The position numbers and the translations under genes were made by a program. From the NCBI GenBank assembly GCA_009784005.1, contig WRCE01000002.1:1-64000 (forward strand): a DNA stretch of 64,000 nucleotides, given 5' to 3'. The stretch comes from Candidatus Methanimicrococcus labiotermitis (GTDB lineage: Archaea; Halobacteriota; Methanosarcinia; Methanosarcinales; Methanosarcinaceae). Of the stretch, positions 7,483 through 47,055 are shown piece by piece; position 1 is the stretch's first letter; each line of letters begins with the position of its first letter. The notes below the pieces were generated by a model. It did no database searches. It saw nothing but the letters and a program-made list of their open reading frames with translations, and was not told where the DNA came from.

Positions 7483-7650
7483 CCGTTCGCTGCAGGCGCC
7501 GCCGAAGGCGGTGACAAAGCGAACGGCTATTCCTAATATTGACAGATGCAGACAGGTGCAGACAGGTGCAGACAGATGCAGACAGATGCAGACAGGTGCA
7601 GACAGGTGCAGACAGATGCAGACAGATGCAGACAGGTGCAGGCAAGTGCA
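7483..7650 (+). repeat. Diverged copy R1 of the dispersed hairpin element, plus 10-bp array
   Basis: The outer stem CCGTTCGC (7483-7490) with GCGAACGG (7519-7526) followed by CTATT matches the other copies of the element in this window. Here the loop carries an extra nested hairpin, GCCGCC-GAA-GGCGGT. The A-tract is degraded. It is followed at 7541-7650 by eleven 10-bp units alternating GACAGATGCA and GACAGGTGCA, comparable to the CAGATGCATG and downstream arrays of the other copies. Confidence 0.7.
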
Positions 7651-7668
7651 GAGTAAGGACAGGTAACA

Positions 7669-7766
7669 GAGAAAAGGTAGCAAAGAAAAGGTAGCAGAGA
7701 AAAGGTAGCAGAGAAAAGGTAGCAGAGAAAAGGTAGCAGAGAAAAGGTAGCAGAGAAAAGGTAGCA
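7669..7766. repeat. 14-bp tandem array
   Basis: Seven copies of GAGAAAAGGTAGCA with one or two substitutions, starting 18 bp after the 10-bp array of the R1 element. No gene is near on either side for several hundred bases. Confidence 0.88.
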
Positions 7767-8538
7767 AAGAATACAAAAAATCAAAGAATACGATAGAAAT
7801 CTGAGAATAGATAGCAGAGAATAGATAGAAATCAGAAAATGGAAGTCAAAACAATAAGCAGAAAGCAGAAATAGAAGTCAGAAAAGGACAATTCGCCACA
7901 AATTATCCTTTTCTCTTTTCACACATTTCTTCCAATTCAAAGATTTTTCGAGTCCGGTTGAGTCTAATAATCTTAGCCCAACGCTGACGAATCCAATATA
8001 GGTTTCAATCAGATATATACTTATCGCAAAATCTAGCCGAATATAGCACAAATGATTAAAAATGCTAGATTTTTTATTCCGGTATTTTAGCGTAGAGATT
8101 GCTGATAGAATTTCATATCACATTATATCAAATTTCTACTTTATTGTATAACTTTTTAGGCGTTTTTAATATTTGAATTTAACCAACATCGATTTTCTTA
8201 ATAGAAAGAGCTAGATTCAAGCCGGCGTCCCAATTCTAGCACAAATATGTGCTTTCCTACTATTTTGCTATATTTCTTTTATTTTGACGGACATTTTAGA
8301 TAATTATACACGCCTATTGATATCGTTTATCAAGATACTATCAATTCCTATCAAAAAATATGCCGGATGGTTTTCGTCATCTCTTCTCTGCATTTCATGT
8401 TCACTGTTTTATCAGTTCTTTCAGAGTATTCTTCATTTTTCACAGAATTTCCCGGTTTAGGCTGTAAAAATTATATAGTATAATCTATTAAGTCTGTCAC
8501 ACAAAATTATACAAAGATATATCACAATATACATTTTT
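7767..8538. other. Long AT-rich intergenic stretch with short repeated motifs
   Basis: No gene is seen. Visible structure: an inverted repeat AAATCTAGC (8029-8037) with GCTAGATTT (8064-8072) followed by more T; two copies of TAGCACAAAT, near 8044 and 8247, the second within the palindrome AGCACA-AATA-TGTGCT; and several TATCAA/TTGATA hexamers from 8120 onward. Together with the next feature this is the most AT-rich, motif-dense non-coding stretch of the window. Confidence 0.5.
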
Positions 8539-8670
8539 CAAACACCTATCAAACATCATCAAACACCTATCAAACATCGTCAAACGCCTATCAAACGAAT
8601 ACCGGACAAATACCGGCCATCTATCAAACAGTATCAATTTGATTCAAATTCATATCATTTGATAGATTGC
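8539..8670. promoter_or_regulatory. Iteron-like TATCAA repeats upstream of the ribbon-helix-helix gene
   Basis: Three tandem 21-bp units (CAAACACCTATCAAACATCAT and variants) occupy 8539-8601. They are followed by CTATCAAACAG, GTATCAATTTG and an inverted TTTGATAG near 8658-8665. CTATCAAA and TTTGATAG bracket the last part as an inverted repeat. Ribbon-helix-helix proteins commonly bind arrays of short sites, so this is a candidate operator, or a partition-type site, for the protein encoded just downstream. That link is inferred from position only. Confidence 0.55.
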
Positions 8671-8688
8671 TTGCCGCACTGTCCGAAG

Positions 8689-8696
8689 TTTAAATA
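8689..8696 (+). promoter_or_regulatory. TATA box for the ribbon-helix-helix gene
   Basis: TTTAAATA, a good archaeal TATA element, preceded by GAAG. Transcription would start near 8718, giving a leader of about 35 bases before the ATG at 8754. The iteron-like repeats end about 20 bp upstream, which suits repression or autoregulation. Confidence 0.6.
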
Positions 8697-8753
8697 CAGT
8701 TAAATATTAAAAATGCGTGTTCTGATAGATATATAATAACGGGTTTGCCCATT

Positions 8754-9203
8754 ATGACTCATTCGACCGATGTAAACGACCACAGTAAGCTTGAGGAAAC
8801 ATCTTCTAAAGATGACAGTTCCAGATCCGATGACGGCAGTAAATCGGATGATAAAAAACAACTGAATGTACGGATTTCCACCGAGCTCTATAAAAAGCTG
8901 GATTCAATCAATGAGCCGAAAGGCGTTGTTGTGACAAAAGCGCTTGAGCAGTATTTGGATGAAGAAAATGAATCTGTCGTTTCCCAAGAGTATGTCTCGG
9001 CCCTTTTAAAACAGCTGGAAGTCAAAGACGCTCAAATTGCCGCGCTTCATCACCAGCTTGAAACGAAGGATGAACAAATAACTGAGCGGGACAATACAAC
9101 AAAGATGCATATTGCTCAGGTTCAAACTTTGATTAATCAGGTTGAAAAGAAAACGCTTGAACTGGAAGACGCTAAAAAGAAAAAATGGTATCAGTTTTGG
9201 TAA
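8754..9203 (+). CDS. Ribbon-helix-helix DNA-binding protein with C-terminal coiled coil
   Basis: Product of 149 residues. Residues 1-35 are polar and disordered (Ser/Asp/Lys rich). Residues about 36-72 fit a ribbon-helix-helix fold: a beta strand KQLNVRIS, then TELYKKLDSI, then a second helix VVTKALEQYLDE. From about 80 on, it is a heptad-like coiled coil (LLKQLEVKDAQIAALHHQLETK) ending in the basic aromatic tail KKKKWYQFW. RHH proteins bind DNA as dimers, and a coiled-coil tail could promote higher assembly or partner binding. The ATG at 8754 is preferred over a TTG nine bases upstream. It is isolated, with a long repeat-rich upstream region. It may be an autoregulator, a plasmid-type partition factor or a relic of an integrated element. 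Confidence 0.7.
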   Translation: MTHSTDVNDHSKLEETSSKDDSSRSDDGSKSDDKKQLNVRISTELYKKLDSINEPKGVVVTKALEQYLDEENESVVSQEYVSALLKQLEVKDAQIAALHHQLETKDEQITERDNTTKMHIAQVQTLINQVEKKTLELEDAKKKKWYQFW

Positions 9204-9305
9204 ATTTGTTTTTTTGTTTTTGCCGGCGGTATTCTTGTCTTTGTTTATTCTTGTTTAATCTTTTTTAATTCGTTTTTTAATTTGTTTGTGAATACATTTT
9301 CTGTC

Positions 9306-9556
9306 TGCATTTGCTGCCTGCATTTGCTGCCACCTGCCAACAGGAACTTACCTACATGCTATCAGCTTTTTTTTGTAACAGCCGTTCGCTTCGCGAACGT
9401 GGCACTGCTACCACCATTGCTGCTACCGCCACAGTTGCTGCTTCTACTGCCCTTGCTTCTGCTGCCCCTCTTGCTGCTACCGCTGCCTCTCTTGCTGCTT
9501 CTGCTGCCTCTCTTGCTGCTTCTGCTGCCTCTCTTGCTGCTACCGCTGCTTTCTTG
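9306..9556 (-). repeat. Copy R2 of the dispersed hairpin element
   Basis: Minus-strand copy. The hairpin CGTTCGC-TTC-GCGAACG is at 9383-9399 and is preceded on the + strand by a T8 tract and ATGCTATCAGC (the CAGATGCATG block of other copies, altered). On one side are imperfect repeats of CTGCATTTGCTGC, on the other about 150 bp of short repeats such as GCTGCCTCTCTTGCT. It fills the gap between the convergent ends of the RHH gene and gatE, ending 16 bp from the gatE stop. Confidence 0.85.
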
Positions 9557-9571
9557 CTTTTACTTCATCCC

Positions 9572-11488
9572 TTACTTCATCATCGCATCTATTTTTTCCT
9601 TCAACATTCGGCTGACTTCTTTGCCCTCGATTTTGCCGCGGTATTTTTCCATGACGATTCCCATGAGGGGGCCGACAGCTGCGGGGCCTTTTTCTTGGAT
9701 GAAGGACGTTTTTTCGGCGATGATGGCGTCGATATAATCTTCTATTTCTTTTTCGTTGACCGCGCCGATGCCCAGTTTTTCGGCGGCTTGGAGGATGATG
9801 CAGCCGGCGTCGTTGCAGACCATTATCAAGATGTTGCGCGATGCGTCCTTGGGGAGTTTGCCGTTGGCGATTAAATCAAACATTTCCTCGAATTTGGCGT
9901 TGGAGATTGAATCGATGTCGAAGCCTTCTCTTTTTAATTCGGGTAAGACGCCCGTGAAAGTTCGGGCAAGCAGCGTGGGGGTGACATAATCGTTTCCTTT
10001 GTATTTTTCAGCCATCTTTTCAAACAACGACATGTGGACGGAAAAGGCGACCATGTCCGCGAACTCCGCGTTTAACCCGTATTCTTTCATATAGCGGGCG
10101 GCTCTGTCAGTCAAAAGCTCGGGGGCTTTCAAATTTTTGTATCCTTCGCGGCTGATCGCGAATGTCGGTAAGTCGGTTTCGGGATACATGCGGGCGGCGC
10201 CGGGCAGCGGGCGCAGGTAAGAGTTGTTGCCGTCAGGAAGAGCACGGCGCGTTTCTTGAGGGATTGTGAGCAAAACGAGTTCAGCCCGCTGAATGACGGA
10301 TTCCATCGCTCTCGTGACAACGGCTCCTCTGCCGGAAATCATGATGACGGCATCGTCTTCTTCGGCGCCGACAGCTTTTCTGAGACTTTTTACCTCTTCG
10401 GCGGTGATGCCGTAATTGGGCAATTCATCCGTGTGGAACAAGCCTGAGACGCCGACAGCTTTTGCTTTCTCGGACAACTCCGTGCCGAGTCTTCTGCCGG
10501 GCTGGATTTCACGGCCGACATAACCTTTAAACCCTTTCAGGCGGATTGCAATGATTTTTCTGTCTTTGGCGCTGTTGATGATGACTTTGGATTTCGTGTC
10601 CGCGAAAATGTCCGTCACGTCATACATGGACGGATCGACGGAGGCGCCTTTTGCGTTCAGTTCTTTTTTAATTTCAATCAACGCCAGCTGGCGGAATATC
10701 TCGCGTTTGACGATTTCATCAATCATGGCAAGCGCCTGAACGCCTTTCATTTCAACGCGCGTTCCTTCTTTGATGGAAACGTTTACGTCCTGACGAATGG
10801 TTCCGATGCCGCGTTTCACGGCGCCCGTTGAACGAAGCGCCATGCCGAGATAGGCGGCGACTTCATAAGCCTGCTCGGGCGTTTTGATATCCGGCTCGGT
10901 CGCGATTTCGATGAGCGGGATGCCGAGACGGTCGAGTGAGAAGACAACGTATTCATCGGTTTCTTCCACTTTCGGCGCGGATTCCTCTTCCAAACATAAA
11001 CTGGCAACGCGGCACTTACCGGATTTCGTTTCAATCCAACCGTTTCCGGCAATAAATGTGGTCCGCTGAAAGCCGGCGGGTCCCGAGCCATCGACAATGA
11101 TTTTTCTCATCACATGGCTCCGGTCGGCGGGCACCATGTGGAGAAGTTTGGAAACTTCAAGGGATGTTTTCAAAGCCTCGGGGCTGACCGGAACAGGGCC
11201 TGCTTCGTCGATGTCGCCCAAACAAGTCGTGTCGTAAACCAAATACCTGTTTTGGCGGTTGGCTTGCGTCTGTTCAATAACGGCGCGGTCCATCATACCC
11301 AAATTGTTGGCCTTGGGGCGCAAGTATCTTCTGACCTCGCGCGTCGATTCTTCCGGCTCCCTGTAAATGTTCGGGCAGCGGCAGTGAAGTTTTGTCGGCG
11401 AATCCACCTGCTGATGGATTTCAAGACCGACCATCAAACCGAGAGCATTATAATCGTAATCGGGGACTGTTTTACTTTCGTGACTCAT
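9572..11488 (-). CDS. gatE: Archaeal glutamyl-tRNA(Gln) amidotransferase subunit E
   Basis: With GatD, converts misacylated Glu-tRNA(Gln) to Gln-tRNA(Gln); this heterodimer is specific to archaea. The 638-residue product starts MSHESKTVPDYDYNALGLMVGLEIHQQ, the invariant GatB/E motif. The kinase-like core continues with CRCPNIYREPEE, RQDVNVSIKEGTRVEMKGVQ, and an insert at about 290-400 that corresponds to the GAD domain known from GatE and bacterial AspRS. The C-terminal helical and tail domains (from about 480) end ISRMLKEKIDAMMK-like (SRMLKEKIDAMMK). Length is normal for GatE rather than the shorter GatB. gatD is not in the window. The upstream gap to phosphopantothenate synthetase (140 bp) carries three imperfect repeats around ATGCAATTTGTTAA. 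Confidence 0.97.
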   Translation of the reverse strand: MSHESKTVPDYDYNALGLMVGLEIHQQVDSPTKLHCRCPNIYREPEESTREVRRYLRPKANNLGMMDRAVIEQTQANRQNRYLVYDTTCLGDIDEAGPVPVSPEALKTSLEVSKLLHMVPADRSHVMRKIIVDGSGPAGFQRTTFIAGNGWIETKSGKCRVASLCLEEESAPKVEETDEYVVFSLDRLGIPLIEIATEPDIKTPEQAYEVAAYLGMALRSTGAVKRGIGTIRQDVNVSIKEGTRVEMKGVQALAMIDEIVKREIFRQLALIEIKKELNAKGASVDPSMYDVTDIFADTKSKVIINSAKDRKIIAIRLKGFKGYVGREIQPGRRLGTELSEKAKAVGVSGLFHTDELPNYGITAEEVKSLRKAVGAEEDDAVIMISGRGAVVTRAMESVIQRAELVLLTIPQETRRALPDGNNSYLRPLPGAARMYPETDLPTFAISREGYKNLKAPELLTDRAARYMKEYGLNAEFADMVAFSVHMSLFEKMAEKYKGNDYVTPTLLARTFTGVLPELKREGFDIDSISNAKFEEMFDLIANGKLPKDASRNILIMVCNDAGCIILQAAEKLGIGAVNEKEIEDYIDAIIAEKTSFIQEKGPAAVGPLMGIVMEKYRGKIEGKEVSRMLKEKIDAMMK

Positions 11489-11628
11489 ATTAAAGCGTCC
11501 TGAGTTTGTTAAGTTGGATTAGTGAAATATGCAGTTTGGCATGCAGTTTGTTAATGTCAGATGCAATTTGTTAATATCAGATTGTCAGATGCAATTTGTT
11601 AAAAATCGCCGAAAAATAATTTCCGGCT

Positions 11629-12504
11629 TTACTCCATCATCAAATCGCCGCCGCGCATCAGCACCTTTCTGGCGATTTCGGCTTTTCGTTCCATTTTCGC
11701 GGTTGTTTTGGGGTCGGGCGCGGGCGCGTTGTCTTCTTCAACAATACCCAAAATTTCATTTTGTTTTTTCGCCAGATTTTCTTTGATGGTTTCAATCGCG
11801 TCGGTCAAAACCGCTTTATTGTCGTAGGCTTCCACGATTTCCCAAAGGTCTTCTTTTGTCATGTCTTTGAAGTCGGGAACCATTTCAATCATTTTCGGAA
11901 GCGCGCGTTTCAGATTATCAACAATGCTGACATGCGCCGCCTGCGCGGTTCGGGACAGCGGGTTTAAGTCAACGGCAATAACCAGTTTATTCATTCCTGT
12001 CAATGCTTGGCAGCGGTCGCCGTCTTCCAAGGGGACGAAAATGACATCGGCTTCATAGATGCCTTTGCGCTCGACTTTCGCTCGCTCGTGTTCAAGCGGC
12101 AGCAGCGGTTCGGCGTTTTCGCCAAGAACAACATCGGCGCCGTTGGCTTTGAGTTCTTCGACAATTTTTTTGACACGTTCGTCTGTCCGGTGGAACAAGT
12201 TGACTTCCAGCACGGCGCCGGTCAGCTTGGACAGCGCCGCAAGCTCAGCGGGCACCAAAGCGGCAGCGTTGCCGTTGACGGAAATAACCGGCTTTTCGGC
12301 AAGCAGGAGGAGCGAAACAGCCACAGCCTCCGCATATTCAGCGCTTTGTATTGTCTCTTCTCCAATCAGATAGTCAAAAGCTTCTCCGCGCCCCTGCGCG
12401 ATTAAACCCTGGCGGCCGGTAATTCCTTTTTCAACGCCGGCGACGATTTGTTCGCGCGTCATCAAAGATTCATAACGAGGATGGTTTTTCGGGATTTCTG
12501 TCAT
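11629..12504 (-). CDS. 4-phosphopantoate--beta-alanine ligase (archaeal phosphopantothenate synthetase)
   Basis: ATP-dependent condensation of 4-phosphopantoate with beta-alanine, the archaeal replacement for bacterial pantothenate synthetase in coenzyme A synthesis. The 291-residue sequence matches the family closely: IPKNHPRYESLMTRE at the start, GLIAQGRGEAFDYLIGE near 33-50, PVISVNGNAAAL near 72-83, LEVNLFHRTDERVKK near 98-112, and IFVPLEDGDRCQAL near 155-168. It partners functionally with pantoate kinase and CoaBC, which lie 50 kb away in this window. The C-terminal 40 residues form a charged tail. Upstream is a gene-free stretch of more than 900 bp with a structured segment. Confidence 0.95.
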   Translation of the reverse strand: MTEIPKNHPRYESLMTREQIVAGVEKGITGRQGLIAQGRGEAFDYLIGEETIQSAEYAEAVAVSLLLLAEKPVISVNGNAAALVPAELAALSKLTGAVLEVNLFHRTDERVKKIVEELKANGADVVLGENAEPLLPLEHERAKVERKGIYEADVIFVPLEDGDRCQALTGMNKLVIAVDLNPLSRTAQAAHVSIVDNLKRALPKMIEMVPDFKDMTKEDLWEIVEAYDNKAVLTDAIETIKENLAKKQNEILGIVEEDNAPAPDPKTTAKMERKAEIARKVLMRGGDLMME

Positions 12505-12889
12505 AATTTCACTTGCAATTGTTTAAAGTTTTAAATTCACGTCATTGCAGATAAACCGCTTCATCTTTTAAAATCATTCGTTTGATTTACAGCCGGAAAT
12601 ATTTGACTGAGTCTCCTAAAGCGCAGCTGTCAATTTCTCTGACCTTAAACGAAATAATTTTTATTTCATATTTATTAGTGATATTTTCCAAATTGGATTT
12701 ATTTCACTGATTCGAGAAGCGGACAAAATAAAGTTGAATAATAATGGCACTCGATGGTATCGTTTAAAATCCGATGAAAAATATATTTATAGGCGTAAAA
12801 AGGAAAAATACTCAAATTAAATTGAATTGAATCAAGAAAGAAATGACAAAAATGATAAAAATGACAAGATAAAAATTTAAAAAAGAAGG

Positions 12890-13010: not shown

Positions 13011-13083
13011 GTGTTGTCAGACAAAAAAAATGTAAAACAATTTATGTTTACCTAACCCTATCCGCTCCTAATTATTATAGTGG

Positions 13084-13091
13084 TATATATA
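13084..13091. promoter_or_regulatory. TATA-like element in the larC downstream gap
   Basis: TATATATA flanked by GG and CT. On the minus strand it would start RNA near 13060 and read through the paired hairpins towards phosphopantothenate synthetase. Another TATA-like run (AATATATAAAG) is at about 13103-13113 on the + strand. The element is palindromic, so direction cannot be assigned. Confidence 0.35.
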
Positions 13092-13140: not shown

Positions 13141-13445
13141 CAATAGCATAATAAGTAGTGAGTAAGCAGTAAGTAAGCAGTAAGTAAGCAGTAAGTAAGC
13201 AGTGAGTAAGCAGTAAGTAAGCAGCGAGTAAGCAGTAAGTAAGCAGCGAGTAAGCAGTGAATAAGCAGTGGCGGTAGCTGTGCCACGTTCGCGAAGCGAA
13301 CGGCTGTTTAAAAAAAAAGCAGATGCATGTCGTAAGTGCCGAATTGCAGGTGGCAGTAAATGCAGGCAGTAAGTCGTAGCGAGTAAGCAGTGGCAGTAAA
13401 TGCAGGCAGTAAGTCGTAGCGAGTAAGCAGTGAGTAAGGAGAATA
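13141..13445 (+). repeat. Copy R3 of the dispersed hairpin element with flanking arrays
   Basis: Left array at about 13154-13268: ten 11-bp units around AGTAAGCAGTA. Core at 13270-13356: GGTAGCTGTGCCA, hairpin CGTTCGC-GAA-GCGAACG, an A9 tract, GCAGATGCATGT and TGCAGGTGGCAG. Right array: two copies of a 46-bp unit containing GGCAGTAAATGCAGGCAGTA. Compared with other copies the core is nearly identical, while both arrays have their own unit. It ends 25 bp from the larC stop codon. Confidence 0.88.
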
Positions 13446-20292: not shown

Positions 20293-20400
20293 GTTTTTTA
20301 TATTTTTTTAACTTCTTTTAACTTCTTTTAACTTTTTTTATATTGACCGAATGGTCACCCGCGTTTGACTTATTAATTGAAGATTTGTAACAGCGTCGGC

Positions 20401-20551
20401 AGCAGTGGCGATGGTAGCAGTGGCGGTGGCAGCAGTGGCGGTGGCAGCAGTGGCGGTGGCAGCAGTGGCGGTGGCAGCAGTGGTGGTAGCTGTGCCACGT
20501 TCGCGAAGCGAACGGCTATTTCAAAAAAAAGCAGATGCATGTGGCTACTTC
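20401..20551 (+). repeat. Copy R4 of the dispersed hairpin element (left arm of an inverted pair)
   Basis: Left array at 20401-20490: six 15-bp units of AGCAGTGGCGGTGGC. Core: GGTAGCTGTGCCA, hairpin CGTTCGC (20498-20504), GAA, GCGAACG (20508-20514), GCTATTTC, A8, GCAGATGCATGTGG. It continues directly into the 16-bp array and faces copy R5 in inverted orientation. Confidence 0.92.
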
Positions 20552-20900
20552 CTGCATTGACTGCCACCTGCATTGGCTGCCACCTGCATTGGCTGCCACC
20601 TGCATTGACTGCCACCTGCATTGGCTACCTGCATTGGCTGCCACCTGCATTGACTGCCACCTGCATTGACTGCCACCTGCGTTGACTGCCACCAGCATTG
20701 ACTGCCACCAGCATTGACTGCCACCAGCATTGGCTGCCACCTGCATTGGCTGCCACCTGCATTGGCTGCAACCTGCATTGACTGCCACCTGCATTGACTG
20801 CCACCTGTATTGGCTGCAACCAGCATTGACTGCCACCTGCATTGACTGCCACCTGCATTGGCTGCCACCAGCATTGACTGCCACCAGCATTGACTGCCAC
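20552..20900. repeat. 16-bp tandem array, 22 units, between inverted element copies
   Basis: Twenty-two copies of CTGCATTGACTGCCAC with variants (CAG for CTG, GGC for GAC, GCGT for GCAT); one unit is shortened to 13 bp, so the length is exactly 21 x 16 + 13 = 349 bp. Open frames such as WQSMQVAVNAGG on the reverse strand arise because the repeat lacks stop codons in all frames; they have no start site or ribosome site and I do not call them genes. Confidence 0.93.
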
Positions 20901-21158
20901 CTGCCATCAGGAACTAACCACATGCATCTGCTTTTTTTTGAAATAGCCGTTCGCTTCGCGAACGTGGCACAGCTACCGCCACTGCTGCCGCCACTGCCCC
21001 TGCTTCTGCCTCTGCTCCTACTTCTGCCACTGCTCCTGCTTCTGCCACTGCTGCCACTACTGCTGCCGTCACTGCTACCGCCACTACTTCCGCCACTGCT
21101 CCTGCCACCACTGCTGCCGCCACTGCCACCACCACTGTTGCCACCACTGTTGCCGCCA
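20901..21158 (-). repeat. Copy R5 of the dispersed hairpin element (right arm of the inverted pair)
   Basis: Reverse complement of the R4 core: CCACATGCATCTGC, T8, GAAATAGC, hairpin CGTTCGC-TTC-GCGAACG, TGGCACAGCTACC. The outer array (about 20975-21158) is a degenerate mix of GCCACTGCTGCC, GCTCCTGCTTCT and similar units. R4 and R5 cores agree over about 65 bp with no mismatch seen. The pair and the array between them form an inverted repeat of about 760 bp. Confidence 0.92.
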
Positions 21159-21271: not shown

Positions 21272-22195
21272 ATGGATATTATTCTTGTCATTGTTTTTTT
21301 AATCCTCACGGGCTATTTTCTCAAAAGAATCGGCCTCCTTGCCGAAAAAGATAAAGTGGCTTTGAATAACGTTGTTCTTTATATCGGCATTCCCGCCCTT
21401 ATTTTTAATTCGATGCTCAGGAATGTGCATGCGGATGAACTGGCGTCGTTTTTTAAGCTGACGATTTTTTTTATGCTTGTGTCTTTGTTCGCTGTTTTTT
21501 TGTCTTATGTTGTCGGCAAAAAGATTCTCAAATTGCAGCCGAAATCGCTCGCCGCTTTTATTTTGGTCGGCGCCTGCAGCAATACCGCCTTTATGGGCTT
21601 TCCCATTATTGCGGGATTTTACGGCACCGAAGGCTTCACGCGGGCGATTTTTTGTGATGTCGCCAGTCTGTTTCTCATCGTCGGCCTCGCCGCGTATCTC
21701 GGTTCTAAAGTCGGCGGCCATAAGGTAAATGTCGTTAAATAGCTGTTGAAATTCCCGCCGGCAATTGCGTGGGCCTTGGCTCTTGTTTTGATTTTGCTCG
21801 GCGTTGACATGAGCATGGCGCCATCCCTCCTCTCAAGCATCTTGGAACTGCTTTCGGGGCTCGTCGTTCCTTTGATTATGCTGTCGCTTGGCATTTCTCT
21901 GTCAGGAAAATACTTAAAAATCGCCTTCATTCCCGCTGTCGCCGTGACCGTGATTCAGCTATTTATCATGCCGATCGCCGGAATCTTAGCCCTGCCGCTT
22001 TTTCAGCTTGCGGAATTGGATAAAAAAGTCGCCATCATCGAAGCCGGGATGCCGCCGGCGCTGACACCCATCATCTATGCCGAAATTTACGGATTCGATA
22101 CCAAATTGATTTCCGCCGCCACGTTTTTAGCAACAGTCGCCTCCATTTTGTCAATTCCGGCATGGCATTTGATAATGGAATCGGGATTAATATAA
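21272..22195 (+). CDS. AEC-family transporter interrupted by one in-frame TAG codon
   Basis: Auxin efflux carrier (AEC) family permease, a class of secondary transporters for organic anions such as malate. One reading frame of 307 codons spans the gene, interrupted only by TAG at 21740-21742 (codon 157). Both halves belong to the family: before it, IGLLAEKDKVALNNVVLYIGIPALIF and GACSNTAFMGFPIIAGFYG; after it, KFPPAIAWALALVLILLG, LSSILELLSGLVVPLIMLSLGISLSG and IIEAGMPPALTPIIYAEIYG, giving about ten hydrophobic segments and a usual full length. With other genes here never ending in TAG, read-through as pyrrolysine is possible; a recent nonsense mutation is the simple alternative. No Shine-Dalgarno is seen before a second start, so a separate downstream protein is less likely. 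The stop is TAA. Confidence 0.82.
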
Positions 22196-22251
22196 TAGCG
22201 AAAACGGAATCAAGAGAATAACAAATGAATAACAAATAGCGAAAGCAATCA

Positions 22252-22623
22252 AGAAATAGCGAAAGCGAGTTAAGGGAATAGCGAAAGCGAGTTAAGGGAA
22301 TAGCGAAAGCGAGTTAAGGGAACAGCGAAAGCGAGTTAAGGGAACAGCGAAAGCGAGTTAAGGGAACAGCGAAAGCGAGTTAAGGGAACAGCGAAAATGA
22401 GTTAAGGGAATAGCGAAAGCGAGTTAAGGGAACAGCGAAAGCGAGTTAAGGGGATAACGAAAGCGAATTAAGAGAATAGCGAAAACGAGTTAAGGGAATA
22501 GCGAAAGCGAGTTAAGGGAATAGCGAAAGCGAGTTAAGGGAATAGAGAAAGCGAGTTAAGGGAATAGAGAAAGCGAGTTAAGAGAATAGAGAAAGCGAGT
22601 TAAGGGGACAGCGAAAGCGAAAG
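22252..22623. repeat. 22-bp tandem array between the AEC gene and leuS
   Basis: About 17 copies of a 22-bp unit beginning GGGAATAGCGAAAGCGAG and ending TTAA, with substitutions such as ACAGC for ATAGC. It lies in the 614-bp gap between convergent genes. The flanks (22200-22250 and 22624-22800) hold looser repeats of the same kind (AATAACAAA, AAAACAGATACAGATTCAAT). Confidence 0.92.
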
Positions 22624-38986: not shown

Positions 38987-41900
38987 ATGATTTCGTTTAA
39001 AAAATTCAGCACATTCATTGTACTTTTAACACTGATATTTTCAACGGCGCCGATAATTCCGGTCGCCTCAGCCGACCCGATTCCTGTATTGATTCAGGGG
39101 ACGGATGACAAAATCGATGTTTTGTATATCGGATACAAGGGCGCTCAAATGATTCATGTCTCTTCAGACATGCACGATCAAATGTATTACAAAGATGATT
39201 TTGAAATTCATACAATCATCATTGACTGGATGGTCGGATATCAAAATGAGGTTAGCGATTATGATTTAACGACATTCGATATTGTCATCGTTGACATGAC
39301 AGTATTAGAATTGTTCGGAGAGTTTGGCGCCTTTCAGGCTGCTCACGACAGCGGTGTCACGCTTGTCGCAGTTGCAAATAGCAACGGCGCATCAACCCTT
39401 ATCCCTGAATACTTCGATTTCAGAGACACACCGGATTTAACGACAAGCACGGCATACCCGAGTGATACAATTGATACATTTTTTGCATTGTATAAGGCCG
39501 CTGAGGACTATTCCGAAGATGAAATGGACAAGTATGAACAAATCCAACTCGATTACGCCGAAAATATGCTGATGTTCCTCGCGGAAGCCAGAGGCAAAAA
39601 AGCTCAGGTGTCACCGGAATACACCGATATCATGGACAGATGGGAACAAAACAAAATAAAAGTTGCATACATCGGCTTTACCGGTCATGCAGCTTGGCCT
39701 CTTGTGAATCAATATTCTTCTTTTATGAACGTCACGTTATTTACGAGTTACTGGACGGACGCAGGCAGGATCAGTATTGAAAATTTCGGTAACAGCGGCG
39801 GATTTAACGACCAAGATTTTATTCTGATTTACATGATTACAGCGGCAGCTTGTGCACAAATTGACGCAAATATTACCGCTCATGAAAATAAACTGGAAAC
39901 TGTTGCAACAGGCGGAACGATTCCTGTCTATTTCATTGCCAGTACTGCCCCTGACTACGGAACAGAAATTGATGATGAATACAGACTTTCAAGAACAATG
40001 GGCGAAACCAACGCTCAAATTTTGCTCTTCGCCGCTCAGAAATACGAGAGTGAGAACGCAACGACCGACATTACAAAAGACTGGGTATTGAAAAAAGCGG
40101 GTTTGCTCTATGGAATTTATCACCCTGATTTAGCAGCAAAGTATTTTTCGACATTGGACGCGTATTTGACGGCATATCGCACATATGATGCTGACCGCCC
40201 GACTGTCGGCATCTGGTTCCACAAATCCTATTTCACCGACGGCCGCGTTGCAATCATTAATGAATTGATCAGAGATATTGAAAGCAAAGACGTCAATGTC
40301 ATTGCGGGCTTTGATATCTTCCAAGAAACGGGAGCCGGTAATCCGATGATGAAGTATTTCTCCAAAGACGGGGAAGTGTTGATCGGGTCCGCGATTTCGA
40401 TTAAAGATTTCACGCTCAACTATTTTGATTACGACACAGGCATTGACTGGCTGGAAGAATTGAACGTCACCGTCTTAAAAGCGGTGGTTGCTTCGACAGG
40501 ATCTTCAACAAAAGGCATTCCGAAAGATATGCTTGTCTATTCAACAATTTCACCCAACAGAGACGGTATGACAGATTTCGTTATCCTCGGAAATATTATT
40601 GAGGACCGCGTGGCAGTCACCTACCATGAACAAAAGGACTGGCTCGCCAACCGCGCAATCAAATGGGCGAAATTGAGACAGATGGAAAATGAAGACAAGA
40701 AGATTGTCATCATGTACTACAACTACCCGCCCGGGAAAGACAACATCGGCGCGAACTACCTTAACGTGATGAAGAGTCTCGGCGGCGATGAGAACGGCAA
40801 CGGCGGCGTTTTGAGGGAGATGAAGAATGCGGGATACACGGTTTCTTTTGACGACCTGCCGATTACCGAAGCGGAGCTGACAGACGAAAGCCTTTTGGAT
40901 TTGGTTTTGAGGCAAGGCATCAATGTCGGCGCTTACGCGCCGGGTGTCCTTGACAAGTTGGCGAAAGAAAGAGGAAACACGCCGGATGCTGACTGGTGGG
41001 GCGCAACGCTTCTGCCGGTTGAAACATACAAGGTGTGGTTTGACGAGATTGAAAATGAATCCATTAAGGCAAGCCTGATTAAAGAATGGGGCGAGCCGTG
41101 GGATTATTCTAAATCAGTTGTCGCTGACCCGAACGGCATGAACGGTATGATCTGGGTTGATGAATACGGAAAGAGGTTCTTTGTTCTTCCCGCCGTTCGA
41201 TTCGGAAATGTGTGGATGATGCCGCAGCCGGACAGAGCTTTGGCCACCGGCAAAGCCGCGTCTTATCACGGCGGCGACCTTCCGCCGACACACCAGTATG
41301 TCGCTTTCTACTTCTGGCTGAACTATGAATTTAAAGCCGACGCGCTTGTCAATTTCGGAACGCACGGCACGCATGAGTGGCTGCCGGGAGAGGCATACGG
41401 CTTAAACGCAAGAGACGACCTCGCGCCGCTGCTGTTGCAAGACTTGCCCAGCATTTACCCCTACATCGTCGCGAACGTCGGCGAGGGATTGACAGCGGAA
41501 TACCGCGGAAACGCTTTAATCGTTGACCACATGACGCCGCCGATGATTCGGTCAAACTTGGACTCAAACGGAGACTTGTCTTATTTGGAAAGAGAAATCC
41601 AAGCTTACTTAATCGGCCAAGACAGTGAAACAAACAGACTGCGTCAGGCGGAAATTGTTGACAGAATGTTTGCCGCAGGAATTCACAACATTATCGGAAT
41701 CGACCATTTGAAGCGGGATTTAAACCCGAGCAACCCGCAATCGGTAACAGATAACCAAGTGAAAGAATACTTAAAAGGATTTGACCGCGCAACCTTCTCC
41801 AGATACTTAAGAGATGAACTGTTCAACTACATTGAATCCATCAAAGAAAACAACCTGCCGTACGGCATGCACGTTTTCGGTCAAAGCATGACGGAAGAAA

Positions 41901-44275
41901 TGATCGCCGCGATGCTTCGCTCCATGTGGGGACCGCCGTTTGACCAAATCCTCTTTGAAACCTACTACAAAGATAACGGATACGCGGGCATTCCCTACGA
42001 AGATGAGTTAAAGATCCTCGCCCTTGTGAAAGATTTGGAAGCCGCGGGCAGCCCGTCTGCGATGACGCTCATCCTTGAAAACGCTTTCTCGGATGAAAAG
42101 TATGAAGTAAACGGAATGCCGCCGACCGCGAAGGACCATGAAGGCGTTGTACGGTTCATCATGGGCCCGATTATGGATATCCAAGGAAGCGATGCCAATG
42201 CCATCATTACGGTATGGAAAGACAACGGCGTGTTTGATGATTTGAAAGAGGAAATCATCTTTACCTATTTCTTCTACACAGCACAGCCGTCTGACGCCGT
42301 ATTAGAAGGCGTTATCGAAAGAATGGTTCAGTACTGCATCGACAACAAGCCTTTCGCCTCCGGCTCTGAATTGGTGAACAACGCGATGATTGACGAATTC
42401 AAAACGCAGTCGCATCAAAACAAAGCGGTTGTCGCGTACATGACCGGATACGGCCGTTTGGAATACGCCGACAGGTTAAGAGCCTGCGGCCCGGCGGAAA
42501 TGACAGCCTTTATGGCTTCCTTATCCGGCGGCTACATCCTCCCAAGCGCCGGCAACGACCCGATTCAAAACAGAGACGCGGTCCCGACCGGAAGAAACTT
42601 CTACGGCATCGACCCGACAAAATTCCCGACGAAATCCGCATGGGAAGTCGGCAAATCATTGGCGGACCAGCTCTTGGCGGATTACTATTCCAAGCACGGC
42701 GTGTTCCCCAACACGGTTGCTTTCTCGCGTTTCGGTACAGAATTTATCCGTGACGAAGGCGCTTTGGAAGCCTGCGCCCTTTACTTACTGGGTGTTGAGC
42801 CGGTTTGGGACATCAACGGAAACGTGGACCCCAGAACCGTTAAAGTGATTCCGCTGAGCGAACTCACCGTGACGTTAAACAACGGAACAACGATCCAGCG
42901 CCCGAGAATTGATATCGTTTACACGACTGCCGGTATGAGAGATTCGTTTGGCGACAAGCTGAAACTCATCAATGTCGGCGTGAGAGTGGTGTCAAATCTG
43001 GATGAGTCCCCTGAAGAGAATTATGTCAGAGTCAACACAGAAGCGCTCAGAGCCAATCCGGCAACCGCGCCTTTTGCCGAAATGCGTTGTTTCGCCAATG
43101 AACTCGGCAACTACGAAATCGGAACCGGAAACTTAATCAGCGCCAGCGGTTCTTGGGATGACCCCGAAGCCATTACAAACCTGTATTTGAGCAAAATGGG
43201 ACACGTGTACGGCGATGACTCCGTTTGGGGCGTCAGCGCCGCTGAACTCTTAAGAGCGCTCTTAAAGAACACGGATGCAACGATTCACGCGTCTTCATCA
43301 AACCTCTACGACAGTTTGGACAACGACGACTTCTTCCAATACTTCGGCGCCTTGAGCTTGGCAGTCAAACACTCAAGAGATGACGGAAAGTTGCCGGAGA
43401 TGTATGTCGCCGACACAAGAAACGTCGGCCAAAGCGCGCGTGACAACGCCGGTAAGGTGTACACGATGAAGCAGTTCCTCAACATCGACATGGAATCACG
43501 CTACAAAAATGAAATGTGGATCAAAGGAATGATGGAATCGGGATACGCAGGATCAACCATGTTCTCCGAATTCGTGGACAACCTCTTCGGCTGGGCCGTG
43601 ACAACGGACGGACAGCTTGTCACTTTCAAAGACTGGGAAGATGTCTTTGACATTTACGTCAATGACAAGTTTGAATTGGGACTTCCGGAATATTTCCAAA
43701 ATAACCCGTACGCTTACCAGTCTATGACCGCCAGAATGCTTGAGAGCATCCGAAAGGAATACTGGGTCGCAGAGACGGAAGAGCAGAAGGAGAAATTGGC
43801 GCTGATGGAAGAAAAGCTGATGAACGAGTTCCTTCAATCTGTGGCTGACCACGGCGTCGCCTGCTGCCACCACACCTGCGGCAACCCGCGTTTTGACGCG
43901 TTCATCGCGGGAAAAATGGCAGTTACGGGAGTCGACCCCGAAAAACAAGAAGAATATGCAAGGCAAGTAAGGGAAGCGACATACAGAGAAGTGCCGCTGA
44001 TAAGAACACCCCCGCCGCCGCCCCCCTCAGGATCCTCCACAGGAACCGGATTCGGCGTAATGGAAGGAACGCCCGGACCGACGGTTGAAGCCGCCGGCGC
44101 AGGCTCCAGCCAAGATACGACAGGCTATGAAATGACGACAACAACAGCGGTCGTCAACGCGATAAGAGATGCCATGAGCAGCATGTCATTCTCATCGTCC
44201 AACATCATCGTGCTTATCGGAATCGTCGGTTTGTGCGGCGTCATCTTCTATGGATTCAGAAGGAAGGGCGTGTAA
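38987..44275 (+). CDS. Secreted, membrane-anchored CobN/ChlH/HmuS-like tetrapyrrole chelatase-family protein
   Basis: 1762 residues. N-terminal signal peptide (MISFKKFSTFIVLLTLIFST, cleavage near SADP at 29-32) and a C-terminal span SNIIVLIGIVGLCGVIFYGF followed by RRKGV, so most of the protein should lie outside. The body matches CobN/BchH large subunits of metal chelatases: WWGATLLPVETYKVW near 665, VNFGTHGTHEWLPGEAYGL near 787-805 and FAVSRFGTEF-type VAFSRFGTEFIRDEGALEAC near 1243. Near the end lies ACCHHTCGNPRFDAF (residues 1625-1639; C1626, C1627, H1628, H1629, C1631), a possible metal site. A proline/glycine linker (TPPPPPPSGSS) joins it to the anchor. CobN in B12 synthesis is cytoplasmic with CobS/CobT; an external version beside ExbB-like genes resembles HmuS of haem-utilisation loci. 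The true tetrapyrrole and metal are unknown. Confidence 0.88.
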   Translation: MISFKKFSTFIVLLTLIFSTAPIIPVASADPIPVLIQGTDDKIDVLYIGYKGAQMIHVSSDMHDQMYYKDDFEIHTIIIDWMVGYQNEVSDYDLTTFDIVIVDMTVLELFGEFGAFQAAHDSGVTLVAVANSNGASTLIPEYFDFRDTPDLTTSTAYPSDTIDTFFALYKAAEDYSEDEMDKYEQIQLDYAENMLMFLAEARGKKAQVSPEYTDIMDRWEQNKIKVAYIGFTGHAAWPLVNQYSSFMNVTLFTSYWTDAGRISIENFGNSGGFNDQDFILIYMITAAACAQIDANITAHENKLETVATGGTIPVYFIASTAPDYGTEIDDEYRLSRTMGETNAQILLFAAQKYESENATTDITKDWVLKKAGLLYGIYHPDLAAKYFSTLDAYLTAYRTYDADRPTVGIWFHKSYFTDGRVAIINELIRDIESKDVNVIAGFDIFQETGAGNPMMKYFSKDGEVLIGSAISIKDFTLNYFDYDTGIDWLEELNVTVLKAVVASTGSSTKGIPKDMLVYSTISPNRDGMTDFVILGNIIEDRVAVTYHEQKDWLANRAIKWAKLRQMENEDKKIVIMYYNYPPGKDNIGANYLNVMKSLGGDENGNGGVLREMKNAGYTVSFDDLPITEAELTDESLLDLVLRQGINVGAYAPGVLDKLAKERGNTPDADWWGATLLPVETYKVWFDEIENESIKASLIKEWGEPWDYSKSVVADPNGMNGMIWVDEYGKRFFVLPAVRFGNVWMMPQPDRALATGKAASYHGGDLPPTHQYVAFYFWLNYEFKADALVNFGTHGTHEWLPGEAYGLNARDDLAPLLLQDLPSIYPYIVANVGEGLTAEYRGNALIVDHMTPPMIRSNLDSNGDLSYLEREIQAYLIGQDSETNRLRQAEIVDRMFAAGIHNIIGIDHLKRDLNPSNPQSVTDNQVKEYLKGFDRATFSRYLRDELFNYIESIKENNLPYGMHVFGQSMTEEMIAAMLRSMWGPPFDQILFETYYKDNGYAGIPYEDELKILALVKDLEAAGSPSAMTLILENAFSDEKYEVNGMPPTAKDHEGVVRFIMGPIMDIQGSDANAIITVWKDNGVFDDLKEEIIFTYFFYTAQPSDAVLEGVIERMVQYCIDNKPFASGSELVNNAMIDEFKTQSHQNKAVVAYMTGYGRLEYADRLRACGPAEMTAFMASLSGGYILPSAGNDPIQNRDAVPTGRNFYGIDPTKFPTKSAWEVGKSLADQLLADYYSKHGVFPNTVAFSRFGTEFIRDEGALEACALYLLGVEPVWDINGNVDPRTVKVIPLSELTVTLNNGTTIQRPRIDIVYTTAGMRDSFGDKLKLINVGVRVVSNLDESPEENYVRVNTEALRANPATAPFAEMRCFANELGNYEIGTGNLISASGSWDDPEAITNLYLSKMGHVYGDDSVWGVSAAELLRALLKNTDATIHASSSNLYDSLDNDDFFQYFGALSLAVKHSRDDGKLPEMYVADTRNVGQSARDNAGKVYTMKQFLNIDMESRYKNEMWIKGMMESGYAGSTMFSEFVDNLFGWAVTTDGQLVTFKDWEDVFDIYVNDKFELGLPEYFQNNPYAYQSMTARMLESIRKEYWVAETEEQKEKLALMEEKLMNEFLQSVADHGVACCHHTCGNPRFDAFIAGKMAVTGVDPEKQEEYARQVREATYREVPLIRTPPPPPPSGSSTGTGFGVMEGTPGPTVEAAGAGSSQDTTGYEMTTTTAVVNAIRDAMSSMSFSSSNIIVLIGIVGLCGVIFYGFRRKGV

Positions 44276-44303
44276 GCGAATCGGACCCGAAGAAATCAAT
44301 ATG

Positions 44304-44390
44304 AACGAAACCGTTGAACGGTAAACCATAAACGAAACCGTTGAACGGTAAACCGTAAACGAAACTGTTGAACGGTAAACCGTAAGTAAG
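44304..44390. repeat. 27-bp tandem array downstream of the CobN-like gene
   Basis: Three copies of a 27-bp unit beginning AAACGAAACCGTTGAACGG and ending TAAACC(G/A)T. Each unit contains the near-palindrome CCGTTGAACGG. It follows the stop by about 30 bp. Confidence 0.85.
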
Positions 44391-44471
44391 CAGACCATAA
44401 AATAGGAAAGCCAAACAAGAAGACCAAGAAATAAAACCACAGAAAAAGAAAACTCCAAAATGTAAACCCCA

Positions 44472-44516
44472 ACGCATTTCAGATTTCAAAAGATTAAAAG
44501 AAATCTGAAATTGCGT
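44472..44516. terminator. Long hairpin between convergent genes
   Basis: ACGCATTTCAGATTTC pairs with GAAATCTGAAATTGCGT (one bulged base) around a 12-base A-rich loop, and CCC/GGG can extend the stem to about 19 bp. It sits between the convergent CobN-like gene and the 100-residue gene, a usual place for a shared terminator, but lacks a strong U-tract. Confidence 0.55.
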
Positions 44517-44570
44517 CGGGCTGTTTTGAAAAACGGTTGAAAAAACAAATATAAAACAAAAACAGAAAAA

Positions 44571-44873
44571 TCAGCTTTCAAGCCAGGTTTTCATTTCTCT
44601 TTTCATAAACTTTTCAGCCTCTAAAACCCGATCCAGCGGGCCGCGGAGAGCGATAACTGACGTTTGCGCCACTTCGGGCTCGGTGATAGAAATGACGCGG
44701 TCGGTCACTTCCAAGTCAAACGTTTCAACCATGTCCATAATGATTGACATCGGAACACCCATCGGCACAATAAGGTCGTACAGGTCTTCTAGTCCGTCAT
44801 TCTCACCTGAGAGCTCCGCCAGCTCAAAACGCTTCCGGCTGATTAAATCGTGCAAAGATAAGACTTTTGTCAT
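44571..44873 (-). CDS. Conserved small protein of unknown function (100 aa)
   Basis: Not recognised. 100 residues, acidic, mixed alpha/beta: MTKVLSLHDLISRKRFELAEL, then DLYDLIVPMGVPMSIIMDMVETFDLEVTDRVISI and a closing SVIALRGPLDRVLEAEKFMKREM. The last stretch resembles the strand-helix of small ligand- or RNA-binding folds, but this is weak. AAGGATCC precedes the ATG. It is alone on the minus strand, convergent with the CobN-like gene. Codon use and composition fit a real gene. Confidence 0.7.
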   Translation of the reverse strand: MTKVLSLHDLISRKRFELAELSGENDGLEDLYDLIVPMGVPMSIIMDMVETFDLEVTDRVISITEPEVAQTSVIALRGPLDRVLEAEKFMKREMKTWLES

Positions 44874-45155
44874 AAGGATCCTTTTGTTTTTGATTTTTGA
44901 CTCGCGGGCTTAAATCCCGCAGAGGCTATAAATGATTCAAAATGTAAAGCCATATAAACGCTTCACCTATTAAAAATGTGACGATTCAAAACGATTTACA
45001 AACGGTTTGAAACAATTTAAAACGGTTCAAAGAGAACGAATCGCAAACGTATTCAAAGAAAAACAAAACGAAACAAAACAAAACGAAACCCAAACATAAT
45101 TCAAAGAGTAATTTTTTAATATCAATAATACTCTCTCAATGTAAAAGGTGTAATT
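44874..45155. other. AT-rich divergent gap with short repeats
   Basis: 282 bp without a gene. Contains loosely repeated AACGATTTAAAACGGTTTGAAAC-type motifs at about 44980-45030 and AAACAAAACGAAAC runs near 45060-45090. A TATA-like TTTTTTAATATC is near 45113, about 40 bp before the DUF5611-like gene. Confidence 0.45.
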
Positions 45156-45470
45156 ATGCAGGAATATAAATTGAAAAGAGGCTCAACGCCCGATATTGAA
45201 AGAATTAAAGGTTTGCTCAACGAATGCTTCGGCGCGGAAATCAAAGAGAAAGACGGCAAGCTGACGACATCTTACGGCGTTTTAAAAGAAATCACCGTTT
45301 GGATCAACCAAAAGCAACTCTGTGTTGACACCGTTTCCGACAACTCGGTTAAAGACGACAATGTCATTTTAGACTCCAACAAACGCTTCAGAACATTTTT
45401 GGACAAAGGAACGGGCTACACCTCCAAAGACCGCATAAAAAACGCGAAAAAGGAAGTCGGCGGCGAATAA
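45156..45470 (+). CDS. DUF5611-like small methanogen protein
   Basis: 104 residues: MQEYKLKRGSTPDIERIKGLLNECF, then YGVLKEITVWINQKQLCVDTVSDN and DNVILDSNKRFRTFLDKGTGYTSKDRIKNAKKE. From memory this matches a short family conserved in Methanosarcinales and labelled DUF5611; function unknown. The compact alpha/beta pattern with basic C-terminus could bind nucleic acid, but nothing proves it. AAGGTGTAATT precedes the ATG. It is followed by tRNA-Thr on the same strand. Confidence 0.75.
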   Translation: MQEYKLKRGSTPDIERIKGLLNECFGAEIKEKDGKLTTSYGVLKEITVWINQKQLCVDTVSDNSVKDDNVILDSNKRFRTFLDKGTGYTSKDRIKNAKKEVGGE

Positions 45471-45676
45471 AATCCCCGGTCCATTTTTTTAAAAAAATTA
45501 AAGAAAATTTTAGAGATAGGAAGGAACGGCTCCGCGAAGGAAAACACCAAAAGATTAATATGAGAGGTATTCCTTTTTGGAGTCTGCTATTTCTGTTTAC
45601 AACGGAAGACAGCAACGGTTTTGTTAAATAAATAACGTTATTATTCAAAAACATTCATAAATATTCAGCTCAAAGC

Positions 45677-45748
45677 GCCTCAATGGCTTAGAGGTATAGC
45701 ACTTCCTTGGTAAGGAAGAGGTCGCGGGTTCAAATCCCGCTTGAGGCT
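45677..45748 (+). tRNA. tRNA-Thr (anticodon GGT)
   Basis: Full cloverleaf: acceptor GCCTCAA with TTGAGGC, D arm with AGAGGTA loop, anticodon stem CTTCC/GGAAG with loop TTGGTAA (anticodon GGT), variable AGGTC, T arm GCGGG-TTCAAAT-CCCGC. Discriminator T; CCA is not encoded. No intron. Confidence 0.95.
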
Positions 45749-45863
45749 TTTAAAAATTCGGGCTGAATCTCTCTTTTTTAGTTTTTAATCAAAAACAGCG
45801 AACAGCATAGTGAACGGTATAGCGAACGGTATTGCGATTAGCGTTGTCATTTTGCCGTTATAA

Positions 45864-46058
45864 TCAAGCTCTTTTGAGAACCCAGCTCGCGCCCGAAATA
45901 AATCCGAAACCGACGACCATGCCGATAACGCCGATGATAAGCGAAAACAGATTAAGCGGAGAAACGTTAACGAGAACGATAAAACCGCTGATGAGAGCAA
46001 CCGCCATACCGCAAACAATTAAACAGGCTGCCAATATTGTCGTGAGTCCGTCTGCCAT
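45864..46058 (-). CDS. Small two-span membrane protein (64 aa)
   Basis: Not recognised. MADGLTTILAACLIVCGMAVALISGFIVLV is the first hydrophobic helix and FSLIIGVIGMVVGFGFISGASWVL the second, with a short NVSPLN turn and a basic KRA end. The ATG at 46056-46058 follows GGTGTAATT. A longer frame continues upstream into the R6 repeat element but that part is repeat-derived. It is convergent with tRNA-Thr. Many methanogens carry small membrane proteins of this type; no role can be assigned. Confidence 0.65.
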   Translation of the reverse strand: MADGLTTILAACLIVCGMAVALISGFIVLVNVSPLNLFSLIIGVIGMVVGFGFISGASWVLKRA

Positions 46059-46147
46059 AATTACACCGTTCCGTTTCATTAAATAAATAACAATTACAGA
46101 ACGAAATATAAATAAGTATGGGAAACAAGAGTTTTTTATAAAAAGGG

Positions 46148-46370
46148 AAGCAGAGAGCAGCAGCAAATACAGGCAACAAATACAGGTAGCACAGGCATCA
46201 GTGGCGGTGGTGGCAGCAGTGGCGGTGGCAGCAATGGCGGTAGCTGTGCCACGTTCGCGAAGCGAACGGCTATTTAAAAAAAAAGCAGATGCATGTAGGA
46301 AGTACTTGATGGCAGGTGGCAGAGCAGGTGCAGATGAGAAGTGATAGGTGGCAGATGGCAGAGCAGATGG
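46148..46370 (+). repeat. Copy R6 of the dispersed hairpin element
   Basis: Left side: GCAACAAATACAG repeats, then GTGGCGGTGGTGGCAGCAGT-type units (46201-46240). Core: GGTAGCTGTGCCA, hairpin CGTTCGC-GAA-GCGAACG at about 46252-46268, GCTATTT, A9, GCAGATGCATGTAGG. Right side: GGCAGGTGGCAGAGCAGGTGCAG-type repeats with GGCAGATGGCAGAGCAGAT. It faces copy R7 across the tRNA-His gene. Confidence 0.9.
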
Positions 46371-46458
46371 CAAAACTGCTCAGAGAATATTTAGAATGTC
46401 TTCCTGATTTTGAAATTATTTAAAAAAAGAATCAGGGACACTGTTAAGATGTTTAAAG

Positions 46459-46531
46459 GGCCGGGATCGAGAATCGAACTCGAGTCAAAGCCTCCACAGG
46501 GCTTCAGGATAACCTTTACCCCACCCCGGCC
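46459..46531 (-). tRNA. tRNA-His (anticodon GTG)
   Basis: Minus-strand cloverleaf: an extra G at position -1 (46531) facing C73 (46459), acceptor GCCGGGG with TCCCGGC, D arm with GGTTAT, anticodon stem AAGCC/GGCTT with loop CTGTGGA (anticodon GTG), T arm CTCGAG-region TCGAG-TTCGATT-CTCGA. The genomically placed G-1:C73 pair is the tRNA-His identity element. It lies between inverted element copies R6 and R7. Confidence 0.95.
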
Positions 46532-46744
46532 ACTCTGTTTTCTTTGAAAAGCAATAATAGAAAAGCGGAATGCTGCTTTTCAGAAGCACTCCATAAAACC
46601 TTTGTTTTAATATAAAGCTTTCGACAACCCGCGATGAAAAAAACGATGAAAGTGATGATGAAAAAAGCGATGAAAAAGAAATCGAAGACGTCTTGTGCCA
46701 ATTATTACATCCACAAGGTTTGCACATGGCATTGCATGGCCTTC

Positions 46745-47055
46745 TGCCTGCATCTGCTGCCGCCTACTGCCTGCATCTGCTGCCGCCTGCCATCCGGAAC
46801 TTACAGCATGCATCAGCTTTTTTTTTATACAGCCGTTCGCTTACGCGAACGGGGCACTGCTACCACCACTGCTACCGCCATTGCTGCTGCCATTGCTGCC
46901 GCCACTGCTACCACCACTGCTGCCGCCACTGCTACCGCCACTGCCACCGCCACTGCCGCCGCCACTGCCGCCGCCACTGCCGCCGCCACTGCCACCGCCG
47001 CTACTACCACCACTGCTGCCGCCGCCACTTCTACCGCTGCTGCCGCCGCCACCTT
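46745..47055 (-). repeat. Copy R7 of the dispersed hairpin element
   Basis: Minus-strand copy. Outer array CTGCATCTGCTGCCGCC (46745-46790), GGAACTTACAGCATGCATCAGC, T9, hairpin CCGTTCGC-TTAC-GCGAACGG, then about 190 bp of ACTGCCGCCGCC/ACTGCTACCACC units to 47055. The loop differs from other copies (TTAC in place of TTC) and the stem is extended by one pair, so pairing is kept while sequence changes. It stops 10 bp short of the 67-residue gene's stop codon. Confidence 0.88.

Follow-up and report, generated by a model that had tools for sequence, protein, structure and literature searches.

What is the short hairpin that recurs, with tandem repeats on either side, in the first 64,000 nucleotides of contig WRCE01000002.1 from Candidatus Methanimicrococcus labiotermitis (the whole stretch is called the window here), and how could it have become dispersed? 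Most of what is known of small palindromic repeats comes from bacteria, and the GTAG type of repetitive extragenic palindromic (REP) sequence is thought to be moved by the REP-associated tyrosine transposase (RAYT). An earlier note, drawn from the letters of the window, had described seven copies of the element and had found no name for it. Our results lead us, with moderate confidence, to regard it as a genus-specific, non-coding, interspersed palindromic repeat akin to REPs, hairpin-forming REP doublets (REPINs) and BOX elements, in combination with an account in which slippage at the hairpin produces the adjoining arrays.

A hairpin element dispersed in Methanimicrococcus

The exact 17-bp hairpin CGTTCGCGAAGCGAACG occurs five times in the window, against 0.04 expected from shuffles. 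Model R1, a covariance model trained on 32 copies of the 63-bp core from five species, matches six copies there. Six of the seven copies first described stand, all matching this one core, whereas the one at 7.5 kb has little beyond two stem arms; it is without GGTAGCNGTGCCA, the A-tract and GCAGATGCATG, and model R1 does not match it. Nor is the sequence said to be shared entirely uniform, since the 9.4-kb copy reads GATAGCATG, not GATGCATG. The core unit is asymmetric and about 60 bp long, consisting of GGTAGCnGTGCC(A/C), the hairpin CGTTCGC-GN(N)A-GCGAACG and then GnTGTnATAAAAAAnAGCAGATGCATG. The consensus across copies is AAGGTAGCnGTGCC(A)-CGTTCGC-GN(N)A-GCGAACG-G(C/A)TGTnATAAAAAAGAGCAGATGCATG.

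Searching the whole genome and its relatives with the core, as the earlier note had proposed, bore out a dispersed family. The genome of Ca. M. labiotermitis (1.69 Mb; hereafter the own genome) contains 33 exact 17-mers and 35 core-model matches, and four congeners carry between 11 and 79: M. blatticola DSM 13328 (G010) has 79, G034 has 55, G050 has 16 and Ca. M. odontotermitis (G024) has 11. G042, of the same genus and 66% complete, gave none. These comparisons use one genome per species and draw on metagenome-assembled genomes; the genomes are 57–93% complete by estimate. In other genera of the family, four weak matches were found in 3 of 55 genomes. Exact 20-mers outside the genus were judged unrelated, as only the 20–21 seeded positions match; most of them have flanks in common, which resemble a single conserved coding sequence found in Patescibacteria and relatives. 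Viral contigs gave no exact match to the hairpin, and three 19-mer matches to a loop variant were weak beyond the seed.

Rfam covariance models did not match the element in 15 loci or in the window, returning only tRNA, signal recognition particle RNA and one off-target match. A term search of two Methanimicrococcus genome papers (PMC9723798, PMC11362671) turned up no mention of transposons, mobile elements or repeats between genes, and a literature search of incomplete coverage returned no description of the element. With no Rfam family and no such repeat in these sources, the claim of a multi-copy hairpin element without a named match is supported.

Stem and loop of the core

The stem CGTTCGC/GCGAACG is nearly invariant, with two departing cells among 777 (seven pairs in 111 distinct copies), and no covariation of the core stem was found across these copies. 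Loops follow the rule G-N(N)-A in nearly all copies: GAA was counted 59 times, GCA 12, GCAA 23, GTAA 13, GATA 2, and GAAA, GACA and ACA once each. One further model match is the hairpin of locus L015 on the opposite strand; at L015:1198-1275 the hairpin is flanked on either side by an A-tract/GCAGATGCATG arm, the two arms being inverted relative to each other.

GNA and GNNA loops with G-C closing pairs form extraordinarily stable DNA mini-hairpins, and GCGAAGC melts near 78 °C (PMC4686876). Except for one ACA copy and the degenerate copy at 7484, all copies have a GNA or GNNA loop and at least two closing G-C pairs, and the core centre, GC-GAA-GC, resembles the d(GCGNAGC)/GNNA hairpins (PMC4686876 and references therein). 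Those are known mainly as synthetic oligonucleotides, whereas here they form a natural dispersed family. Of the seven loop types of GN(N)A form, GCAA, GTAA and GAAA fit the RNA GNRA rule, but GAA, GCA, GATA and GACA do not. Because the triloops and GATA/GACA are not GNRA loops, we infer from the loop sequences that single-stranded DNA fits the set better than RNA.

Invariant palindromic half-sites around a variable 3–4-bp centre could also mark a site in double-stranded DNA for a dimeric protein that organises the chromosome or acts in replication, for which the palindrome counts and not the hairpin. Such a site predicts no rule for its centre, yet nearly all centres here obey one; a shift in spacing from 3 to 4 bp would normally disturb dimer binding, and beyond the palindrome the element shows strong asymmetry. 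We find this explanation quite improbable.

Tandem arrays, composites and inverted pairs

The copies had been said to be always flanked by arrays, which is nearly so: within 160 bp, 32 of the 35 own-genome cores have arrays on both sides and two on one side. Units near copies measure 10–24 bp, not 10–16 bp, and the right array near 13.4 kb has a unit of 40 bp in 2.1 copies where 46 bp had been given. In successive 50-bp bins from the core, arrays with a period of at least 8 cover 44%, 75% and 66% of the sequence, and about 20% beyond 300 bp. Core-less spacers have a mean coverage of 24%, so that coverage near cores is two to three times background. Abutting array units also score 6.9–9.8 against their own core edge, compared with 4.3–5.3 for shuffled units and 4.1–4.9 for background arrays (own genome and M. 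blatticola). The proposal that the element seeds new arrays is therefore partly supported, by the 44–75% coverage within 150 bp and by the edge-like units, but 161 of 202 core-less spacers of at least 150 bp have an array as well. About a quarter of the spacer sequence of the own genome is tandem array; in the window, a 22-bp unit (AATAGCGAAAGCGAGTTAAGGG) is repeated 17.6 times at 22235-22620 with no core nearby.

One locus is occupied in both G050 and M. blatticola (L096/L141) with core and right flank 97% identical and left arrays differing by four to five units. The left gene is 89% identical, and identity is about 97% from the array through the core and right gene. Because high identity begins in the array adjoining the core, this single case suggests an exchange with its breakpoint at the element.

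In M. blatticola the core is part of a larger composite. Its parts are, in order, a left motif rich in GC (GCGGCTCGCGCGCGGC), an array with the left edge of the core in its units, the core itself, in many cases a second array on the right, and the R hairpin, which is present in 42 of 50 copies. R stems vary between copies yet stay paired at 323 of 351 positions. The L and R modules were not found near own-genome copies. The R-module hairpins of L061-L154, near TTTTTGCTGTATCGG..CGAATCCGC, have compensatory stem changes and are a candidate structured element of their own. A solo left-type motif, GCGCGGCTCGCGCGCAGCGCC, lies without a core just past a gene end at window positions 60525-60545, and similar solo motifs in G050 and G034 spacers point to a separate dispersed 3'-end repeat. 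The own genome also holds a second dispersed hairpin, CTCCATTTTCGnATTTGnGCGCTGCTTCGCATCGCCC..CGAAAATGGAG (L109:9970-10070 and L001 near 2560).

This modular L-array-core-array-R design recalls the BOX elements of Streptococcus pneumoniae (PMC3049150), in which conserved boxA and boxC modules have variable tandem boxB units between them and which are over-represented between convergent genes. The likeness is one of design. BOX arrays share one boxB unit, whereas here the unit is private to each copy, the conserved centre is a single hairpin and arrays stand on both sides. The tandem repeat regions of Borgs (PMC9879509) are likewise archaeal, fast-changing and independently formed, with genome-specific abundance; no dispersed hairpin is described as their seed, whereas the present arrays are enriched beside one.

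In the own genome, ten neighbour pairs of cores lie no more than 700 bp apart, against about 0.5 expected by simple arithmetic, and in seven of the eight opposite-strand pairs the right sides face each other. For five further cores the contig ends no more than 230 bp to the right, so that assembly gaps may conceal additional pairs. Folding of the 20.5/20.9-kb pair as a single strand gives a very long structure (z -15.6). Recent inverted duplication was rejected as a general origin of the pairs, partner identity being 0.864 against 0.872 for random copies; the 20.5/20.9-kb pair is the exception. An inverted-arm stem common to all species was also rejected as not general (14/30 own copies, 4/18 in G034, 1/50 in M. 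blatticola, 0/7 in G050). M. blatticola has no doublets among the matches listed.

Location at gene 3' ends and turnover between species

Neighbouring genes were called with a simple hexamer caller trained on the window. The copies had been described as intergenic, and no own-genome copy (0/36) overlaps a called gene; among 113 copies, a single one does, at a contig end in G034. Mapping copies to gene ends, a check raised earlier, showed that 3' ends are favoured. For 64 distinct sites with both neighbours, 32 are convergent, 32 tandem and none divergent, whereas 17% of background spacers of at least 150 bp are convergent and 20% divergent (464-kb own-genome sample; p = 1.2e-9 for convergent and 1.7e-6 for divergent sites).

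Such a location would be expected of a transcribed 3' element, an RNA hairpin that acts at gene 3' ends (transcript end, stability or insulation of convergent genes) and is kept by selection, with the arrays as bystanders. The preference for gene ends fits it, as does the direction of the M. blatticola neighbours, which point into the element on the left in 32 of 41 cases and on the right in 27 of 32. The R-module stems of most M. blatticola copies, different yet paired, are consistent with it too, as are the GCAA, GTAA and GAAA tetraloops and one G034 copy that folds as RNA better than shuffles (z -2.9). However, the triloops GAA and GCA and the loops GATA and GACA lie outside the GNRA set, the core stem does not covary, and own-genome copies show no bias in orientation with respect to the gene on their left (17 plus, 17 minus). 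Mobile REP, BOX, RUP and IS sequences moreover show a similar 3'-end or convergent bias without an RNA role (PMC3733652, PMC3049150). We regard a transcribed 3' element as a serious but distinctly less probable explanation.

The sites are not fixed between species. Copies in the own genome, M. blatticola and G034 have no flanking genes in common, and four sites of M. blatticola or Ca. M. odontotermitis (L066, L067, L077, L098) have syntenic own-genome counterparts without the core in the DNA that we fetched; one of these, at window positions 59092-60577, has two extra open reading frames (ORFs) between the genes. For three M. blatticola sites (L064, L076, L146) both flanking genes were located in G050 and the core is absent. 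Three other sites are filled in both genomes, two with aligned left arrays and core and one nearly identical. Copies have therefore been gained or lost between species, and some are old. In the own genome, at L107:11060-11110, which corresponds to an element-bearing site in G024, a different hairpin, GCGAACGGGGCGGCGGATATCGCCGCCCCGTTCGC, is followed by T7; it is terminator-like and has GCGAACG arms in common with the element.

Search for a mobilising enzyme

The element shares much with the GTAG/CGTC REPs and REPINs of bacteria (PMC3733652, PMC3116915), including a short palindrome, at least tens of copies, an extragenic and asymmetric character, gene-downstream or convergent location and, in the own species, inverted doublets. 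It differs in being archaeal, in its GN(N)A loop rule and invariant stem, and in the private tandem arrays on both sides. REPs have an unpaired GTAG tag at the palindrome end, whereas here some 10 nt separate GTAG from the stem, and many copies have GTAA or GGCA in its place. The earlier note had suggested looking for a TnpA-REP-type or other transposase that recognises the hairpin; the TnpA-REP route is not supported, as no Y1/RAYT transposase (PF01797) was found in any of six genus genomes, some of them incomplete, while the M. acetivorans and E. coli controls were positive. Because the position of GTAG and the lack of a RAYT gene do not agree with a REP, we do not class the element as one despite its like location (extragenic, gene-downstream, non-divergent), size and palindromic design. 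A true REP or REPIN moved by RAYT, an IS200/IS605-type Y1 transposase, could account for the GTAG-containing left side of the palindrome and the inverted doublets, although M. blatticola, with the most copies, has none of the latter listed; we take this explanation to be largely refuted.

A miniature inverted-repeat transposable element, the remnant of an insertion sequence whose transposase was lost from the genus, would be dispersed, non-coding and at different sites in different species, as observed. No common terminal inverted repeat was found, however, and three filled/empty comparisons, in spacers too diverged for the purpose, gave no target-site duplications or constant ends. DDE_Tnp_1, TnpB, IS110, Mutator and reverse transcriptase are absent from the genus genomes searched, and the integrase core (rve) was seen only in G024 and G042, below cut-off. 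We judge such a remnant improbable. Phage integrases are scattered in three genus genomes and absent from M. blatticola, the richest in copies. In the own genome and M. blatticola, none of the six transposase and integrase-core families or reverse transcriptase gave a match; other families were not searched.

A possible mechanism

In the account that we favour, the core, when single-stranded (for example behind a replication fork), would fold into an extraordinarily stable DNA mini-hairpin, which some sequence-specific factor may recognise. The hairpin would hinder replication, and local slippage would duplicate the adjacent edges, leaving a private array beside each copy. Copies would spread non-autonomously via trans-acting machinery, possibly since lost, and would persist only at sites that do not come between a promoter and its gene; in the own species, cores would also have ended up in inverted pairs whose right sides face each other. 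A bolder version, which we put forward only tentatively and think rather unlikely, is that the mini-hairpin family spreads without the usual transposases, via replication or recombination (template switching, exchange at repeats), and seeds minisatellites at its own edges, so that it would act at once as a mobile repeat and as a mutator at the 3' ends of genes.

Several points weigh against the favoured account. The hairpin is not needed for arrays, as the core-less spacers demonstrate; the own genome therefore makes arrays anyway. The similarity of units to core edges could come partly from arrays overlapping the edge. Nothing ties the element to a transposase, a nuclease or a binding protein, which leaves the dispersal step unsupported, and neither a strain-level comparison nor a target-site duplication was obtained from spacers this diverged. 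Structural selection on RNA may also have shaped the loops, three of the seven types being GNRA.

A gut archaeal genus with 11–79 copies per genome (none in one congener draft) and without the main transposase families tested makes the spread of repeats without a dedicated enzyme testable in cultured M. blatticola DSM 13328. With its invariant stem and strict GN(N)A loop, the element is a naturally occurring example of a class of hairpins met mostly in synthetic DNA, and its copies are replicated sites for asking if a DNA hairpin raises adjacent tandem-repeat formation.

Features of the window

Core copies and adjoining arrays in the window (left and right of minus-strand copies in element orientation)
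Feature	Position	Strand	Details
Degenerate copy	7484..7525	+	arms CGTTCGC/GCGAACG around 28-nt insert, then GGCTATT
Arrays	7541..7771		10-bp and 14-bp units, right of degenerate copy
Array	9295..9331		13-bp, right side of 9.4-kb copy
Core copy	9352..9415	-	loop GAA; model R1, 74.7 bits
Arrays	9405..9558		15/21-bp, left side of 9.4-kb copy
Array	13145..13270		11/22-bp, left of 13.3-kb copy
Core copy	13270..13332	+	loop GAA; model R1, 82.2 bits
Array	13350..13432		40-bp unit x 2.1, right of 13.3-kb copy
Array	20398..20487		15-bp (GGCAGCAGTGGCGGT), left of 20.5-kb copy
Core copy	20482..20544	+	model R1; left member of inverted pair, right sides facing
Array	20551..20904		16-bp x 22, between 20.5/20.9-kb inverted copies
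Core copy	20918..20980	-	model R1; right member of pair with 20482-20544
Arrays	20968..21158		12/18/24-bp, left side of 20.9-kb copy
Arrays	46160..46241		13/15/18-bp, left of 46.3-kb copy
Core copy	46236..46298	+	model R1; left member of second inverted pair
Array	46739..46790		23-bp, right side of 46.8-kb copy
Core copy	46804..46867	-	loop GTAA; model R1; right member of pair with 46236-46298
Array	46855..47052		12/24-bp, left side of 46.8-kb copy

The core at 9352-9415 lies between convergent neighbours, ORF 8745-9203 on the plus strand and ORF 9572-11488 on the minus strand. At 21272-22195, a single TAG (21740-21742) divides what looks like one membrane-protein gene into two ORFs of the same frame; the TAG could reflect a pseudogene or pyrrolysine-type readthrough in this family.

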